DNA of 64,000 nt from Micrococcales bacterium 72-143 (GTDB lineage Bacteria; Actinomycetota; Actinomycetes; Actinomycetales; Microbacteriaceae): contig MKVM01000001.1 in NCBI GenBank assembly GCA_001898835.1, forward strand, positions 248,001-312,000, read 5' to 3'. The notes under the pieces were generated by a model that saw only the letters and a list, made by a program, of their open reading frames with translations, was not told where the DNA came from and made no database searches. Below, in pieces: positions 27,559-33,779 of the stretch (position 1 is the stretch's first letter; the number at the start of each line of letters is the position of its first letter). Made by a program: the position numbers and the translations under genes.

Positions 27559-27579
27559 GGGCATGAGCCTAGCGAGTGC

Positions 27580-27684
27580 GGTTTCGACACGCGCCTGCGG
27601 CGCTACTCGACCAACGCGGTTTCGACACTTGCCTGCGCGCCGACCCGCTGGTTGAGCAGCCCGCGCAGCGGGCGTGTCGAAACC
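27580..27684. repeat. Palindromic repeat cluster upstream of aroQ
   Basis: GGTTTCGACACGC at 27580-27592 is matched by its reverse complement GCGTGTCGAAACC at 27672-27684, with a third partial copy (GGTTTCGACAC) at 27618-27628. Between them are GCGCTACTCGACCA and CTGGTTGAGCAGC arms. This resembles short intergenic palindromes I associate with Microbacteriaceae genomes. It fills the space between the HNH pseudogene and aroQ. Related units lie at 29020-29055, 33556-33593 and 33658-33710. Confidence 0.75.
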
Positions 27685-27693
27685 AGCTCGCCG

Positions 27694-28910
27694 CTACGCC
27701 TCCGGTGCGGTGGTGTAGCGCCGGCCGAGCGGACTCGTCCACACGAGGGTGCCCGCGCGGGGTTGCTCGACCTTCCAGCCGCCCGCGTGTTTCAGGGTGT
27801 GGTGCCCGCGCGAGAGGTGCGCGAGCTTGTCGTGGGCGGTGATGCCGCCGGTGGCCCAGTCGCGGGTGTGGTCGAGGTCGCAATGTCGGGTGCGGATGCC
27901 CCAGCCCGGGAACCGGCAGGACCCGTCACGGATCCGCAGCCACTTTCGCAACCCCTCGGGCACCTGATAGCTCGTGCGGCCCAGCGAGAGGTGCGCGCCC
28001 GTCTCGGCGCCTCGGCCGTGAGCCGGCGGGCGGTGACCGGATCGATCGGCCCGACCCCCTCCACCTGCCCGGGCTCGTCCCCGCCGAGGAGGGTGAGGGC
28101 GGGAACCGTGACGATGACCGTCGGGGTGATCCCCCGGAAGCGGCCCAGCGTCTCCTCCTGGGCCTGCAGCAACTGCTCCGCGGTCGCGCGGAGCACCTCC
28201 CGGGCGGTCGGGCCGAACCCGAGGCTCGTGTCCCGGTCCAGCAGCGCATCCGTGAACGTGTCGGCGCGCAACTGTCCGACAGTGCGGGGGTCGCCCTCCC
28301 TTTGGGCGTCGTGCGCGGTCTCGGTGAGCCGCTCCTGGATGGCCTCGGCATCCACCGCATGCAGGTAGGCGGTGAGGTAGGCCATCCCATCTCGGGCGGG
28401 CTGCACCGTCACATCCCGCGCCCCGAACGCCTCCGTGCACCGCACGGTCATGGTCTCCGAACTGCGACGCTCCCGCAGCCTCCGCACCGTCCGCGTGAAC
28501 CGTGCCGCCGTCTGGGTCGCGGCGGACCCGAGTGCGACCCGCTCGATCGCAGCCCTGTCCTCCGCGTCGAGGTCGCACAACTCATCGGCCATGACCTTCG
28601 CGTGACGGTACGAGAACCGGCCCTCAGCAAGAGCCGCGAGCGTCGCCGGCAACTGCTCCACGAGCACCCGTGCCTCACCCAGCAACCCCTCCGCCGTCCG
28701 CTCCGGGACACGCAACGCGGCCGCCAACTCCGCGCGCCGCGACCGCTCCTGGAGCGGGAAGCGGTCCGCGGGCATCGCCTCCGCGAACGCCTCCCCGAAC
28801 TCGACCATCGCCTCCGCACGACGAGCCGACAGGGCGTCGATCTCCGCCTGCAACGCGACCACCCGCCCCAACGCGGCATCCGCGCGGGCGAGAGGATCGA
28901 TCCGGTTCAT
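27694..28910 (-). pseudogene. DUF222/HNH endonuclease (13E12 repeat family), frameshifted
   Basis: Two reading frames together encode one DUF222-HNH protein. From ATG 28910 the DUF222 domain reads well (MNRIDPLARADAALG to IDPVTARRLTAEAP), then drifts into arginine-rich nonsense. Another frame resumes with ETGAHLSLGRTSYQVPEGL and the HNH domain (CDLDHTRDWATGG, HTLKHAGGW) to a stop at 27694. The break is at about 28000-28010, where CCGAG occurs twice within about ten bases. About nine residues expected between the halves are absent, so a small out-of-frame deletion is likely. Separately, the HNH motif FPGWG has Trp where a zinc Cys is usual. Such genes are frequent, often multicopy, actinobacterial accessory genes. 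Confidence 0.85.
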
Positions 28911-29019
28911 ACCCCCCACACCACACCGAACCACGGACATCCGAGGGCCGGAAGCGGCCCAGAACCGGGGCTCATCCGTAGGTCTCACGGCATCGTTACC
29001 AGACCGTGACCCGCCTTCG

Positions 29020-29055
29020 CTGGTCGAGTACCGTGCGGAGCGCGGCGGATCGAGA
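29020..29055. repeat. Palindromic repeat unit between HNH pseudogene and exporter permease
   Basis: Reads CTGGTCGAGTACCGTGCGGA followed by GCGCGGCGGATCGAGA. It closely matches the unit at 33556-33593 (CGGTCGAGTGCCGCGCGGA then GCGCGGTGTATCGAG). Outer arms TCGA and inner CCG-GCGG/GCGCGG arms give a hairpin. It lies 11 bases downstream of the permease stop and might also serve as its terminator. The rest of the 28911-29066 gap shows no gene. Confidence 0.65.
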
Positions 29056-29066
29056 TCGCGGGCCGC

Positions 29067-30140
29067 TCAGCGCTGCTGGAAGTACCGCACGAGGTGCCGC
29101 TCACGCACGGTCGCAGACCCGATCGCGGCGGCCAGCATCCAGGCTCCCGCGGCCGCGACGACCACGCGGGCGCCGGCGAGCCAGGCGGCGAACGGGGGGT
29201 CGGGGTTGCCGAGCGTCGCCGCAGGAATGAGGGCGACGAGCGCAAGCGCGCACCCCGGCACGAGCCACAGGGAGAGCTCGGCGAACACGATGCCGGTCAG
29301 GCTGGGCCTCCGCACGCCCGCGTGCAGGGCGGAGGCGAACTCGAGCCGCCGCAGCCGCACGCCGAGGTAGCCGAGCACGGCTGCCACGAGGGTCGCGACT
29401 CCGATGACGCCCGCGAAGGGGATGGCAGCGAACTCCGCGTGGGAGTCGATGCGCCTGCCGAGGGTGGTGTTCCACTGGACGGCGGCCGGGGGCGTGCCCG
29501 CCGCCGAGGCGATCACGACGGACCCCATGATCCCGCCCGCGTTCTCGGGCGGCGGCCAGAACCGCACCCAGCACGAGTCGAACGGACGGTGGTCCCGCAC
29601 GACCGAGATCGCGGCGCCGGACAGCGTGGGGTCGCGCCCGTCGTCGGGATCGGCGAAGCCGCCCACGAGCCCGATCCCACGATCGCCGCCCGCCAGGAAG
29701 CTCGATGCCGGGAGCGTGACGCCGAGCGAGTCGGCGAGGCTGTCCGCGACGAGCAGCCCGGCGTCGACGGTCGCGGGCTGCACCCCGAGCAACGCCGTCA
29801 TGCCCGACGACGCTTCGAGGAGAGGAACGGGCAGATCGGGCAGTGCGGCGAAGCGCAGCGCGGGCACGGCACGCGTTGCACCCGCAGCCTCCACCCCCTC
29901 GACCTCGGCGAGGCGGTCGCACGCGGCGCCGTCGACCTGCCCCGGCGCATCCATGCGGAACACCGAGGCGCCCGCCGCGCGGAAGGCATCGGCGTGCGCG
30001 GCGACCCCGACCACGGCGCGCGAGACGATGCTCGAGCACAGCACGACGATCGCGAGGAACGCGAGCAGGAACGGGATGCCGTGGCTCGCGCCCACGGCGA
30101 AGTTGCGGGCCGCCTCCCGCCAGAGCTCACGGGTGCGCAC
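29067..30140 (-). CDS. FtsX/MacB-like ABC permease of the export cassette
   Basis: A 357-residue membrane protein with the FtsX layout. One helix lies near the N-terminus (about residues 16-42, IPFLLAFLAIVVLCSSIVSRAV), then an extracellular domain of about 190 residues, then three C-terminal helices (FAGVIGVATLVAAVLGYLG, LSLWLVPGCALALVALI, RVVVAAAGAWMLAAAIGSA). MacB-type permeases couple ATP hydrolysis to outward movement of peptides or to cell-wall tasks rather than passing substrate through a channel. The GTG at 30140 overlaps the ATPase gene by 14 bases, the tightest coupling in the cassette. It is the last gene before a repeat unit. No substrate can be read from the sequence. Confidence 0.8.
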   Translation of the reverse strand: MRTRELWREAARNFAVGASHGIPFLLAFLAIVVLCSSIVSRAVVGVAAHADAFRAAGASVFRMDAPGQVDGAACDRLAEVEGVEAAGATRAVPALRFAALPDLPVPLLEASSGMTALLGVQPATVDAGLLVADSLADSLGVTLPASSFLAGGDRGIGLVGGFADPDDGRDPTLSGAAISVVRDHRPFDSCWVRFWPPPENAGGIMGSVVIASAAGTPPAAVQWNTTLGRRIDSHAEFAAIPFAGVIGVATLVAAVLGYLGVRLRRLEFASALHAGVRRPSLTGIVFAELSLWLVPGCALALVALIPAATLGNPDPPFAAWLAGARVVVAAAGAWMLAAAIGSATVRERHLVRYFQQR

Positions 30141-30801
30141 GCCGACCGCTCCCCGCGAGCTCGTCGCGCTCCCCCGACGGGTCGCCGTTGAGGGCGCCGG
30201 GGCGCTGGACCGACGTGAGCACGTCCACGACCGTCGTGCAGACCTCAACCACCCGGGGGTCGTGGGTCGCGACGACGACGATGACGCCCGCGCCGCCGAG
30301 CTCGCCGAGCGCGTCGCACACCTCCCGGGCCGAGGTGGCATCCAGTTGCGCGGTCGGCTCGTCCACGAGCAGCAGTCCGGGCTCGCCGGCGAGGGCGCGC
30401 GCGAGCAGCATCCGCTGCCGCTCGCCGCCCGACAGCATCCGGTAGGGGCGCTCGGCGGCGCCGGACAACCGCAGCAGCGCGAGGTGCTCACGGGCGCGCG
30501 CATCCGCCTCCCCGCGGCGGACACCGCGGGCGACGAGCGGGAGGGCCACGTGGTCGAGGGCGCTCCGCCCCGCGACGCCGTGCGGATTCTGCGGCACCAG
30601 CGCGAGCCGGTCGACGTTCTCGATGATGAGCTCCCCCGCCGTCGGGGTGAGCCAGCCGCCCAGCAGCGAGAGCAGCGTCGACTTCCCCGAGCCCGAGGGT
30701 CCCGTGACGGCCATCAACTCCCCGGCGTCCGCGCGGAAGCTCAGTTCCGAGAACAGCGGCGGCGAGCCCGGATGCGCGAACCCGAGGCCGCGCGCGGTCA
30801 C
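30127..30801 (-). CDS. ABC ATPase of the export cassette (MacB/LolD-like)
   Basis: A 224-residue nucleotide-binding subunit with Walker A GPSGSGKST, Q-loop LVPQNPHG, signature MLSGGERQRMLLARAL, Walker B GLLLVDEPTAQLD and switch VVATHDPRV. It matches the LolD/MacB group that partners FtsX-like permeases. It is shorter than usual between Walker A and the Q-loop. The GTG start at 30801 overlaps the adaptor stop as GTGA, and the end overlaps the permease start, giving a co-translated adaptor-ATPase-permease set. Confidence 0.9.
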   Translation of the reverse strand: MTARGLGFAHPGSPPLFSELSFRADAGELMAVTGPSGSGKSTLLSLLGGWLTPTAGELIIENVDRLALVPQNPHGVAGRSALDHVALPLVARGVRRGEADARAREHLALLRLSGAAERPYRMLSGGERQRMLLARALAGEPGLLLVDEPTAQLDATSAREVCDALGELGGAGVIVVVATHDPRVVEVCTTVVDVLTSVQRPGALNGDPSGERDELAGSGRRAHP

Positions 30802-31805
30802 GGGCACGCGGCGATCACCTCGCTCGCGGGGATCAGCACCTTCGCGACCGGGTGCTCGGGGACGAGGTAGACGGTGCCGAGCTCGCTCGCGAGAATCCGC
30901 ACCGGGACGGGTGTGCGGTCGGCGTCGAGGACGCATCCGCTGTCGCCGTCGGCGAGCACGACGGCGGCCGGCGGCACCCCAAGCGAGTCCACGGGCTCCG
31001 CGAGCCGCAGTTGCACGGGTACGCCGTCGGCCTGCTCGCGCTTCCACACCGCGAAGTCGTACGAGGAGGCGACCTCGGCGAGGAAGGCGGGATCGGTGAT
31101 CGTGCGATCCTCCGGCACCGGGACCACGGCATCCCCCGCCCCCGCGACGTAGGCGCGGTCCGGCAGCTCGGAGCTCGACGCGGGCAGGGTCAGGCTCGCG
31201 AGGCCGCCACCCACCGTGAACAGCGCCTGCCCGGGGCCGACCGGCGTGCCGACGGCGACGTCGCACGAGGCGACCGGCCCGGCACTCGCGGGCACCCACT
31301 GAACGCGGTCGAGCGTGAGCCTCCCCGAGGCGGTGACGGATGCGGCCTTCTGCAGCGCGATGACGGCGGCGACGGTCGCACGGTCGTACTTCCCCGTCAC
31401 AGGCACCCCCAGCGCACGCTGCACGCCCTCGACATCCGGACCCGCGGTCCCGGTGGTGAGGTCGCGCCAGAGGGGAACATCGGAGACGAGCGCGAGCACG
31501 ACGACCCCGTTGACGCTCAGCAGCGGCGCGCCCGTCGCGACATCCGCGCCGACCTCGCACCAGCTCGCGGACACGAGGCCACTCGCGCCGCTCGCGAGCA
31601 CCTGGCGGCTGTCGGTGAGTGCGGGGGTGGCGCTGAGCTTGTGGGCGTCATCGAAGCTGCGCTCGGTCGTCGGTACGAGCCGCGTGGCGGGGGCCGGAGC
31701 CGCGGATGGCGTGAGCACGGGCGGCACGAGGAACACCCCGACGAGCACCCCGATCGCCAGTGCCGCGATCGCGACGATCGCCGCCCAGCGCAGTCGTTCG
31801 CTCAC
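30798..31805 (-). CDS. Peptidoglycan-binding membrane-fusion adaptor (MacA-like)
   Basis: A 335-residue protein with one N-terminal membrane helix (about residues 7-30), then a biotinyl/lipoyl-like half motif (SGLVSASWCEVGADVATGAPL, about 76-95). A peptidoglycan-binding type 1 domain follows (about 121-155; GPDVEGVQRALGVPVTGKYD), and then the second barrel half and a C-terminal beta region. It resembles HlyD/MacA adaptors, but in a Gram-positive it would reach into and hold the wall instead of meeting an outer-membrane channel. The GTG at 31805 overlaps the lipoprotein stop (GTGA). The first 24 bases of this gene also occur as a remnant at 32431-32454. Confidence 0.8.
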   Translation of the reverse strand: MSERLRWAAIVAIAALAIGVLVGVFLVPPVLTPSAAPAPATRLVPTTERSFDDAHKLSATPALTDSRQVLASGASGLVSASWCEVGADVATGAPLLSVNGVVVLALVSDVPLWRDLTTGTAGPDVEGVQRALGVPVTGKYDRATVAAVIALQKAASVTASGRLTLDRVQWVPASAGPVASCDVAVGTPVGPGQALFTVGGGLASLTLPASSSELPDRAYVAGAGDAVVPVPEDRTITDPAFLAEVASSYDFAVWKREQADGVPVQLRLAEPVDSLGVPPAAVVLADGDSGCVLDADRTPVPVRILASELGTVYLVPEHPVAKVLIPASEVIAACP

Positions 31806-32392
31806 AGGCCCAGCGGGTTGCTCGTGCACTGATCGACTCGAGGGTCGGTGAGCGGGGTTCCGTCGGGGAAGTCCGGCGGAATCTTGCTGTCATCGGTGAC
31901 CGGGTAGTACTCGTCGTTCAGCGCCTGCCAGTCCTCGGTCGTGAAACTGTCGTCGGTGATCCCGGCCTTTCGCAGGCACTGCAGGATCAGCTTGGTGAAG
32001 TCCTCGTGCCGGGGATTGACATGGGATGCCCCGTAGAGCGCCTCGATGCCGCCGATCGTCTGCGTGGAGCAGGCCTTCTCGGCGTCGACAAGCGTGCCGG
32101 CCAGGTTCGAGTAGACGTTGTAGCCACCGTTGTCCAGAGCCTCCGCCTTGATGCCCGCGTCGGCCAGGCAGTCGATGTAGCGCTGCCGGGTCTCCCGATA
32201 CTCGGCTTCCGTGATCACGTCATCGCTCAGCACCTCGCGCTGGAAGTCGTTCACCGCGTACTGACGTGCCTCCTCGAACTCCGCAGCCCACGGGCTGTGC
32301 GACGGCTCCGGTGCGGTGCACGCGGCAAGACCGAGGGCAAGCGCGCCGACGACCGCGGCCGCGCCCAGGCGTTCCCGTCGATTCGTCACCAT
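31802..32392 (-). CDS. Cassette lipoprotein 1 (tandem paralog)
   Basis: A 196-residue lipoprotein: basic start, hydrophobic helix and lipobox LAAC (Cys about 24), then an acidic soluble domain. Conserved with its upstream neighbour are SPWAAEFE-AR, VLSDDVIT, YIDCL-DAGIKAEALDNG, YNVY-N, DFTKL, ECLRK-like QCLRK, DPRV--C and the identical end NPLGL. Four shared cysteines in the mature domain (in YIDCL, KACS, QCLRK and DQC) could form two disulfides. The function is unknown; position suggests a substrate-binding, accessory or immunity protein for the exporter. Base composition looks lower in GC than the core genes. The start is ATG 32392, with GTG one codon in as the alternative. Confidence 0.75.
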   Translation of the reverse strand: MVTNRRERLGAAAVVGALALGLAACTAPEPSHSPWAAEFEEARQYAVNDFQREVLSDDVITEAEYRETRQRYIDCLADAGIKAEALDNGGYNVYSNLAGTLVDAEKACSTQTIGGIEALYGASHVNPRHEDFTKLILQCLRKAGITDDSFTTEDWQALNDEYYPVTDDSKIPPDFPDGTPLTDPRVDQCTSNPLGL

Positions 32393-32430
32393 CCGACGAG
32401 GGTACTCCGCGCGGGTGGTGACCCAAGGGG

Positions 32431-32465
32431 CGCCCAGCCCAGTCGTTCGCTCACAGGCCCAGCGG
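32431..32465. repeat. Direct repeat marking tandem duplication of the lipoprotein gene
   Basis: The 35 bases here match 31782-31816 at 34 of 35 positions. At the other copy they span the end of lipoprotein 1 and the first 24 bases of the adaptor gene (GTGAGCGAACGACTG onwards). Here they follow the lipoprotein 2 stop with no adaptor gene attached, so they are a relic. It shows that the duplicated unit ran from the lipoprotein gene into the 5' end of the adaptor. Confidence 0.85.
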
Positions 32466-33065
32466 ATTCGTGGAGCACTCCTGAACGCGCGGGTCATTGA
32501 TCGGGGTTCCGCCCGGAAGCAGCGGAACCGGCCCGGCCGTCCCTGGATTTGCCTCGGAGCCGTCGCCCATCACTGCGGCGAACTCGTAGATGAGCTCCTG
32601 CCAGTCCGCCCCCGTGAAGGTGTCGTCGACGAAGCCACCCTTCCTCAGGCACTCCAGCATCAGCTTCGTGAAATCCTGATTCTGGGGGTTGTAGCGGATG
32701 GCGTAGTAGAGCGGCTCGATCACCGCGATCGTCTCAGCTGAGCAGGTGCGTTCAGCCTCCTCCTGTTTGGCCGACATGTTCGTGTAGACGTTGTAGTTGC
32801 CGTTGTCCAACGCCTCCGCCTTGATGCCCGCGTCCCCGAGGCAGTCGATGTAGTGCTGCCGGACCTCCCGGAACTCCTCGTCCGTGATGACGTCATCGCT
32901 CAAGACGTCGTGCAGGAAGTCGGTCACGGCCTCCTGACGCGCGTGCTCGAACTCTGCGGCCCACGGGCTATCCGAGTGGGACTCTTCAGCGCAACCGGCT
33001 AGTGCGGCCGCTAACGCCCCAATGACGACCACGCCGCCCATACGAGCCGAGCGGGACACGGACAT
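32451..33065 (-). CDS. Cassette lipoprotein 2 (tandem paralog)
   Basis: A 204-residue lipoprotein with lipobox LAGC (Cys about 25), paralogous along its whole mature length to lipoprotein 1 (by eye about half identical) with the same cysteine pattern and NPLGL end. It differs by an extra Gly/Pro-rich stretch of about eight residues near the C-terminus. I placed the start at ATG 33065; a TTG three codons upstream is possible. It follows the small secreted protein by ten bases. Two 60-base rows inside it count to 53% and 57% GC, against 70% in a sampled carB row, hinting at foreign origin. Confidence 0.75.
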   Translation of the reverse strand: MSVSRSARMGGVVVIGALAAALAGCAEESHSDSPWAAEFEHARQEAVTDFLHDVLSDDVITDEEFREVRQHYIDCLGDAGIKAEALDNGNYNVYTNMSAKQEEAERTCSAETIAVIEPLYYAIRYNPQNQDFTKLMLECLRKGGFVDDTFTGADWQELIYEFAAVMGDGSEANPGTAGPVPLLPGGTPINDPRVQECSTNPLGL

Positions 33066-33075
33066 GGCGGTCAAT

Positions 33076-33414
33076 CTAGCTTGTCTGGATGTAGTTCACC
33101 TTGTGGAATCGCCCGCTCGGCAGGTAGGCGTTGGATGCCTGTGAAGTGAGCGTGATCCACGGTGCGTAGGTGTGGCCGACCGGCGAGTTGGTGTTGTCGG
33201 TGTAGTACCAGTCTTTGACCGCCCTGATCTTCGACTCGCCGGTGCAGTTCGCCGTCACCTTCGCTTGGCCGAGCGCGGGCGAATCGGTCGACAGATACGG
33301 CCCGGTGCAGACGGCCTGGGCGGGTGCCGCGATGACGAAGGTCATCGGGATGGCCAGCGCGACCGCGACGGCCGCGCTCAGTGATGCTCGAGTCTTCCGA
33401 GCGACGTGTTCCAT
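33076..33414 (-). CDS. Small secreted protein heading the export cassette
   Basis: A 112-residue precursor. Residues 1-34 form a Sec signal peptide (basic MEHVARKTRAS, hydrophobic core, AQA cleavage site), leaving about 78 mature residues. These have two cysteines (positions 36 and 58 of the precursor, possibly one disulfide) and are rich in Tyr, Thr, Ser and Asn, as in a small beta-rich extracellular protein. I do not recognise the family. It lacks the cysteine-free, His/Tyr-rich pattern of lactococcin 972. As first gene of the cassette it could be the exported or signalling peptide, a bacteriocin-like product, or a sensor. ATG 33414 gives the clean signal peptide. Confidence 0.7.
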   Translation of the reverse strand: MEHVARKTRASLSAAVAVALAIPMTFVIAAPAQAVCTGPYLSTDSPALGQAKVTANCTGESKIRAVKDWYYTDNTNSPVGHTYAPWITLTSQASNAYLPSGRFHKVNYIQTS

Positions 33415-33548
33415 GATTCCGCTACTGATTGAGATGGACTTTCACTCGGGTTGACGACACGCTATGCCCAACAAGAGGTTTTGTCTACAGTCAAAGTGAA
33501 TTTCCTCAAATTCGATGGAGCGAGCCGAACCAGCGGCATCGTCGCACC
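33415..33548 (-). promoter_or_regulatory. AT-rich leader and probable promoter region of the export cassette
   Basis: The rows 33421-33480 and 33481-33540 count to 50% and 48% GC, far below the surroundings. On the minus strand the region contains TTTGACT, TAGACA and, nearer the gene, GGGCATAGCG, so a promoter is likely, but no pair with ideal spacing stands out. No open frame with family similarity lies here. The rest of the gene-free stretch up to 33779 holds two repeat units (33556-33593 and 33658-33710) and a purine-rich run; I see nothing else in it. Confidence 0.5.
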
Positions 33549-33555
33549 CCTGCCG

Positions 33556-33593
33556 CCGGTCGAGTGCCGCGCGGAGCGCGGTGTATCGAGGCC
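33556..33593. repeat. Palindromic repeat unit, aroB side, copy 1
   Basis: CCGGTCGAGTGCCGCGCGGA followed by GCGCGGTGTATCGAGGCC. The inner CCGCGC-GGA-GCGCGG is a perfect 6-bp hairpin, with GGTCGAG/ATCGAGGCC outer arms. It matches the unit at 29020-29055, so near-identical elements bracket the six-gene export cassette. Confidence 0.65.
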
Positions 33594-33657
33594 CCTGTCG
33601 CGCGGCACGGAGGTGGGAGTGCACGCCCTCGCGCCATCCGTGGTGGCGGGGGTGATT

Positions 33658-33710
33658 GCGACAAGCTCAACCCGCGGAGAGGGGCGCTGCGCGGCTACTC
33701 AACCCGCGGA
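33658..33710. repeat. Palindromic repeat unit, aroB side, copy 2, with internal direct repeat
   Basis: GCGACAAGCTCAACCCGCGG ... GCGCTGCGCGGCTACTCAACCCGCGG. CTCAACCCGCGGA occurs twice, 33 bases apart (33666-33678 and 33699-33711). The arm GCGCTGCGCGGCTACTCAACC parallels GCGCCTGCGGCGCTACTCGACC of the aroQ-side cluster at 27580-27684, so both ends of the whole accessory block carry the same kind of element. Confidence 0.6.
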
Positions 33711-33779
33711 AGGTGGGGCGGAGGAGGCGGAAGTGGGGCGGAAGGGGGCCGCCAGGGGCGGGAGGACCCGGAGGAGGGG

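Follow-up and report, generated by a model that had tools for sequence, protein, structure and literature searches.

A candidate bacteriocin-type operon with lipoproteins and a peptidoglycan-gripping MacAB-like pump in Micrococcales bacterium 72-143

Lactococcin 972 (Lcn972)-type proteins attach to lipid II and prevent the septum from forming (PMC11796350; lipid II also in PMC4055356). The genes linked to them are presumed to serve immunity and transport, and according to the available text of a 2024 paper the function of the two had been verified in no such locus (PMC11796350). In the table rows available, the whole Lcn972 cluster raised the minimal inhibitory concentration (MIC) of Lcn972 from 12.5 to 800-1600 AU/mL (PMC4055356). 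In Bacillus, the MacAB-like pump YknWXYZ guards the cell against its own SDP toxin (PMC4887032). Here we describe a six-gene cassette in a stretch of 64,000 nucleotides of Micrococcales bacterium 72-143 (contig MKVM01000001.1, positions 248,001 to 312,000), which will be referred to as the window. The cassette encodes a small secreted protein (S), two lipoproteins (Lp1 and Lp2, of a family termed Lp), an adaptor, an ATP-binding cassette (ABC) ATPase and a permease, and is probably a bacteriocin-type operon consisting of S plus its immunity module, that is, the lipoproteins and a wall-gripping ABC pump. All six genes are located on the minus strand, with start codons chosen by us, at the following positions of the window:

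33414-33076 (33076..33414), minus strand: S, 112 aa, candidate bacteriocin of cluster S-B, without a match in Pfam and NCBIfam; in Klugiella a relative holds this position
33065-32451, minus strand: Lp1, lipoprotein and candidate immunity protein, 204 aa
32393..32450, minus strand: duplication scar of 58 bases, its 5' part a copy of the 5' end of the adaptor gene
32392-31802, minus strand: Lp2, tandem paralogue of Lp1, 196 aa
31805-30798, minus strand: adaptor, 335 aa, GTG start, with an N-terminal hydrophobic anchor (by eye) and a peptidoglycan-binding domain
30807-30127, minus strand: ABC ATPase of the LolD/FtsE/MacB type, 226 aa
30140-29067, minus strand: FtsX/MacB-type permease, 357 aa

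An earlier note on this DNA had placed six genes at 29067..33414, and all of them are present there on the minus strand. The gaps of 10 bases or overlaps that it reported, apart from 58 bases between the lipoprotein genes, agree with the measured junctions, S and Lp1 being separated by 10 bases and Lp1 and Lp2 by 58, with overlaps of 4-14 bases at the remaining junctions. Judged from this spacing, a single putative transcript is plausible; scans for a sigma-70 promoter and a terminator found none, a weak test in which shuffled sequences gave 0.1 and 1.1. The gap before S measures 365 bases. The proposed duplication scar proved to be real. Two repeats, D1 and D2, were found, and the 58 bases open with a copy of the first bases of the adaptor gene; the tandem duplication therefore took an Lp gene together with the start of the adaptor gene. 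Likewise, the description of S as a Sec-exported protein of 112 residues with about 78 mature residues and two Cys was borne out. A basic N-terminus, a hydrophobic stretch and an AQA site, recognised by a simple filter and by eye, make up a Sec-type signal as is found in Lcn972 operons, and cutting after AQA leaves a mature part of 78 residues with two Cys, a computed isoelectric point of 8.66 and a computed mass of 8515 Da, which a disulphide would lower by 2 Da.

The cassette resembles Lcn972 operons in that a gene for a small Sec-type exported protein comes first with ABC genes directly downstream, and in that the downstream module of the window type accompanies Lcn972-family proteins in relatives. 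Lcn972 operons combine a protein of the models PF09683/TIGR01653 with a protein of seven transmembrane (TM) segments (TIGR01654) and an ATPase, whereas the window S lies outside the Lcn972 models, and a lipoprotein, a wall-binding adaptor and a 357-aa permease replace the multi-TM protein of 650-780 aa. A lipoprotein plus an ABC transporter guarding against a lipid II-binding bacteriocin is known from NisI and NisFEG, in which the ABC type is different and no wall-binding adaptor is known. By description, YknWXYZ is similar to the cassette in having a Gram-positive MacA-like adaptor, an ATPase and a MacB-like permease; it differs by the extra YknW, and a lipoprotein and a peptidoglycan-binding domain go unmentioned in the available text (PMC4887032). 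MacAB-TolC, as described in the same source, shares the adaptor, the LolD/MacB-type ATPase and the FtsX-type permease (PMC4887032). Unlike MacAB-TolC, the cassette has separate ATPase and permease genes, and its adaptor carries a peptidoglycan-binding domain. MacA has a hairpin at the place where this domain lies between the lipoyl-like half motifs of the adaptor. In the Lcn972-like cluster Pep1 of Curtobacterium sp. APC 4022, the core peptide is accompanied by two ATP-binding/ABC genes and by two genes listed as hypothetical (PMC10456417). Likened by description only, Pep1 probably corresponds to this five-gene unit, with an Lcn972 protein as S; its S differs from that of the window, and the available text leaves its two hypothetical genes without identity (PMC10456417).

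The search for relatives covered 249 genomes of the bacterial family, including that of the window. A search with Lp1 found Lp relatives in 35 of them. Stretches of approximately 8-14 kb around Lp matches yielded 40 loci, with the weak matches G074, G089 and G148 left out; another 20 loci were taken around some, not all, of the profile matches, resulting in 61 loci together with the window. Lp, adaptor, ATPase and permease were mapped in these loci by profiles. The order Lp-adaptor-ATPase-permease on one strand was detected in 36 of the 61 loci, the window counted and all loci having been picked for an Lp or permease match; L062 and L067, from two genomes, are near-copies among these 36. As so many loci share it, this gene order exceeds chance. 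Profile searches of the 249 genomes detected the permease in 31, Lp in 44 and both in 29 (Fisher, 1.5e-24), and 30 of the 34 full-length permeases have an Lp on the same strand within 4 kb. Three of the other four (L081, L083 and L084) have a divergent Lp nearby, and L078 is without Lp. Of 394 genomes drawn from across the class, seven contained the permease, eight contained Lp and six contained both, with the window's own genome counted. Relatives of the window S were found in 2 of the 249 family genomes, its own and that of Klugiella xanthotipulae, where S occupies the same position of the cassette. The earlier note would have been refuted by homologues unlinked to the pump genes; this check brought no refutation, the linkage of Lp and permease being strong and the sole relative of the window S being linked as well.

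The S position was searched for open reading frames (ORFs) of 88-145 aa that pass a simple signal-peptide filter and end no more than 300 bases upstream of a gene. An ORF of this kind was found ahead of 42 of 59 Lp genes compared to 39 of 358 other genes, the counts for adaptors, ATPases and permeases being 1 of 43, 4 of 56 and 6 of 51, respectively. The filter was drawn up on these loci after they had been seen, and the order of S and Lp is partly by construction, as S was looked for beside Lp. The resulting set of 46 S proteins from 45 loci, from which some had been dropped and to which one had been added by hand, was compared by phmmer using the mature parts. Twelve clusters were obtained at E<1e-4, ten at 1e-3 and seven at 1e-2; at 1e-4, the Lcn972-like cluster holds 22 proteins, the window type two and the rest one to three each. 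The commonest type of S thus belongs to a bacteriocin family: PF09683 and TIGR01653 each matched 12 of the first 21 S proteins, and a profile of 12 motif-bearing S proteins matches the solved Lcn972 structure 2lgn (E 3e-7) and also 9hkj, another Lcn972-family bacteriocin. A match of 1 of the 21 proteins to the mediterrocin model (E 0.02) was set aside, mediterrocin itself being annotated as a member of the Lcn972 family (PMC12345188). One S matched JUQZ-1/BLB8 (PMC11747845) with an E of 0.0027, under the cut-off.

The S position is interchangeable between dissimilar protein families. This exchange, which suits weapons more than a conserved signal, and the fact that the position is most often held by bacteriocin-family proteins argue against a sensing or envelope stress system, which we regard as distinctly unlikely. 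In such a system, Lp would be the receptor for S, which would serve as a signal or be active on the wall, and the ABC machine would influence wall enzymes as a mechanotransmitter in the manner of FtsEX or BceAB. The FtsX-type permease and the wall-binding adaptor would be in line with it; moreover, lactococcin 972 binds lipid II (PMC4055356), so that the machine may work near wall synthesis.

A search of 199 family genomes with an Lcn972 profile yielded 32 places, 19 with Lp directly downstream and 13 without Lp; the profile having come from Lp-linked members, the Lp-linked share of 19 of 32 may be too high. Downstream genes for a large multi-TM protein, called at 656-781 aa, and for an ATPase give 12 of the 13 Lp-less loci (L111-L123) the classical arrangement, and in the thirteenth (L111) a relative of the large protein is located upstream. 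TIGR01654 matched 5 of 10 large proteins at E<=1e-10, all under its cut-off. When the 61 loci with Lp or permease, the window included, were searched with a profile of 12 large multi-TM proteins, none of them showed a relative, and the 13 Lp-less loci gave no match to Lp, adaptor or permease. No examined locus holds both modules, and the lipoprotein-adaptor unit therefore represents a second, putative protection module. In the open-licence literature searched, with subscription papers and preprints outside the search, this module is undescribed apart from the Curtobacterium cluster, as far as the available text goes (PMC10456417).

Several loci deviate from the common arrangement, and these bear on whether the ABC genes protect or export. 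S and Lp occur without pump genes nearby in L055, L058 and L069, whereas an MsbA-like half-transporter follows S and Lp in place of the MacAB-like module in three others (L063:4044-7180, L065:3682-6839 and L041:6392-9243). Pump genes precede S and Lp in L079 and L080, S and Lp are divergent from them in L081 and L083, and L095 contains S-Lp S-Lp in tandem beside one adaptor-ATPase-permease set. The protective genes also occur without S: Lp and pump genes with no S seen were found in L042 and in L037, the contig of the latter ending approximately 400 bases upstream, and Lp alone, with no S recognised in 560 bases upstream, in L048, L054, L060 and L061. In L066, an apparent decayed Lcn972 gene is located upstream of 5998, before an intact Lp. 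L076 and L094 contain partial Lp matches. Protective genes found without a toxin gene fit the prediction of immunity and not pure export. In a dedicated export system, the pump would move Sec-delivered S from the membrane or wall to the medium with the lipoproteins as delivery chaperones. The tight operon order, the finding of S in 34 of 36 loci showing the complete gene order and the MsbA-like half-transporters in the place of the pump are in favour of this alternative. Nevertheless, S and its counterparts bear Sec-type signals of their own, S-Lp pairs do without a pump and the module does without S (L042, and L037 up to the contig end), and we consider dedicated export unlikely. The earlier note had called the locus an export cassette and had also suggested an antimicrobial-peptide system with immunity lipoproteins; the latter is the best-supported reading, and the former is less supported for the same three reasons.

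A bacteriocin-type operon would work as follows. S would leave the cell via Sec and be cut after AQA, and a protein of 78 residues, probably closed by a disulphide, would be released. Its site of action would be the envelope of close relatives, which it would presumably kill. The lipoproteins would be the cognate immunity proteins at the outer face of the membrane, either binding S or shielding its target. Adaptor, ATPase and permease would assemble into a mechanically driven machine of the MacAB kind with a grip on peptidoglycan through the adaptor, the wall-binding domain of which would tether the machine to the wall and replace TolC. This machine would expel S, clearing it, or its complex with the lipoprotein, from membrane and wall. 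Based on the Lcn972 literature and the protection conferred by the MacAB-like pump of Bacillus, we infer that Lp catches S and that the wall-gripping adaptor and the ABC pair remove it.

Besides the way in which the signal filter, the S search and the Lcn972 profile were set up, several results weigh against this reading. S showed no credible match to Pfam and NCBIfam, including the lactococcin 972 models PF09683 and TIGR01653. Comparing S with Lcn972 by hhalign gave a probability of 21% over 22 columns (E 0.001 for a single comparison), and phmmer gave only single cross-matches with E values of 0.05-0.07. The window S lacks a firm sequence tie to Lcn972, and the tie may be a very distant one. 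Profile tests revealed no link to the other groups of Cys-bearing S either: in leave-one-group-out profiles, the two window-type S proteins scored 0.4 and 2.7 bits, which 177 and 54 of 200 shuffles reached; only for the single members L088, L049 and L043 did as few as 1, 3 and 4 of 200 shuffles, respectively, do as well. Neither cluster C nor cluster E forms a single clade in the 45-row Lp tree. When the comparison was confined to the 33 loci that have every part, the S clusters require nine changes on the Lp tree, nine on the permease tree and ten on the adaptor tree, with a minimum of eight; the permease tree fits S as well as the Lp tree does, so that the cassette is inherited whole and a matching specific for S and Lp is unproven. 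Furthermore, the structure model of Lp1, with a mean pLDDT of 54, is too poor for use.

Two proposals were rejected on the basis of these tests. By eye, C-x(12-20)-C recurs close to the N-terminus of the mature part in many Cys-bearing S proteins, but the profile tests do not support one family for all of them. A closer coupling of S to Lp than to the pump is likewise unsupported by the 9, 9 and 10 changes on the 33 full loci. In the larger Lp tree of 45 rows, obtained by a quick method and including the two split clusters, the S clusters need ten changes, the least possible, and 21 Lcn972 rows lie on one side of a branch.

A lipobox-like Cys was recognised by eye in both Lp1 and Lp2, which are 57% identical, and the family alignment A3 revealed three invariant Cys in addition to the lipobox Cys. 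Neither protein had a credible match in Pfam and NCBIfam. Searching 44 Lp sequences against both libraries at E 0.01, with the presence of a NisI model in them not checked, gave no model of a lipoprotein or bacteriocin immunity protein, merely stray weak matches to one or two members. By eye, an L-x-DGxIT-x-x-E stretch in A3 is similar to the latter half of the loop of an EF-hand. The GC content at third codon positions is lower in Lp than in the pump genes (0.72 versus approximately 0.76; 24 of 33 loci, p 4e-4) and in S does not differ from that of the pump genes (p 0.73); no conclusion was drawn from these values.

The peptidoglycan-binding domain that had been claimed for the adaptor agrees with the evidence from its family. 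The window adaptor itself matches PG_binding_1 under the Pfam cut-off (E 6e-4), 15 of 23 family members match at E<=0.01, and the family profile matches solved peptidoglycan-binding domains with an E of 3e-6. The domain is placed between two lipoyl-like half motifs (by eye). MacA-like features are weak, with an E of 0.095 for RND_mfp and of 0.0034 for the family profile against a MexC-like adaptor. The ATPase clearly matches ABC_tran (E 9e-25) and is of the MacB/LolD type; its six best NCBIfam matches, all under curated cut-offs, include FtsE, LolD and L_ocin_972_ABC after AztA and CydD, and Walker A, signature and Walker B motifs are intact (by eye). For the permease, the FtsX match is weak (Pfam, E 0.85) and NCBIfam gave no match at E 1. 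In its family, FtsX matches 8 of 24 members at E<=0.01, the family profile matches MacB with an E of 0.02, and a simple hydropathy count of the relatives gave mostly three or four hydrophobic segments.

The cassette is part of an island that is absent from same-genus relatives, the genes aroB and aroQ being adjacent in all four same-genus genomes. The further features of this region are as follows:

27572..33779, no strand assigned: 6.2-kb island between aroB and aroQ, comprising the cassette and an HNH-type gene, absent from 4 of 4 same-genus genomes
27694-28988: HNH-type gene, seemingly frame-broken, readable only as two overlapping frames
29018..29054, plus strand: 37-nt dispersed repeat, copy downstream of the cassette
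33554..33590, plus strand: upstream copy of the 37-nt dispersed repeat, on the other side of the cassette and oriented like the downstream copy

A 33-nt pattern of the dispersed repeat has nine matches in the genome with up to three mismatches. The HNH-type gene, which we take to be DUF222-like, gave no NCBIfam match at E 0.001 for either of its two pieces. The window permease and Lp1 had no match in 72,556 plasmid records at E 1e-5, phage and viral collections not being searched. The absence of the island from the four same-genus genomes, the seemingly frame-broken HNH-type neighbour and the sigma-70 scan without a promoter, a weak test, could be explained by a passenger, in other words by real linkage of the genes elsewhere with a recent, silent or failing copy in the window that has no function in its host. 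On the other hand, all six reading frames of the cassette are open and the ATPase motifs are intact by eye, and we consider a passenger very improbable.

If the bacteriocin-type operon is the correct reading, the S gene represents a candidate new bacteriocin family. It is possible, if not quite probable, that a general actinobacterial chassis of a lipoprotein and a peptidoglycan-gripping MacAB-like pump serves small Sec-exported antibacterial proteins of about ten different families, lactococcin 972 being the only one with a firm match to a known bacteriocin family in this analysis; the window would then contain one of the two genes known so far from an additional bacteriocin family, the paired lipoprotein would set specificity and the pump would pull the toxin from the wall. 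Within one bacterial family, two modules can be told apart which never occur together in the loci examined. The analysis brought out a lipoprotein family that neither Pfam nor NCBIfam matches credibly and about ten clusters of small exported proteins in the place of the bacteriocin, and provides the Lp profile A3 and the permease profile A4 as handles for finding new actinobacterial bacteriocins. The role of ABC genes for a Sec-exported bacteriocin thereby becomes a directly testable question.

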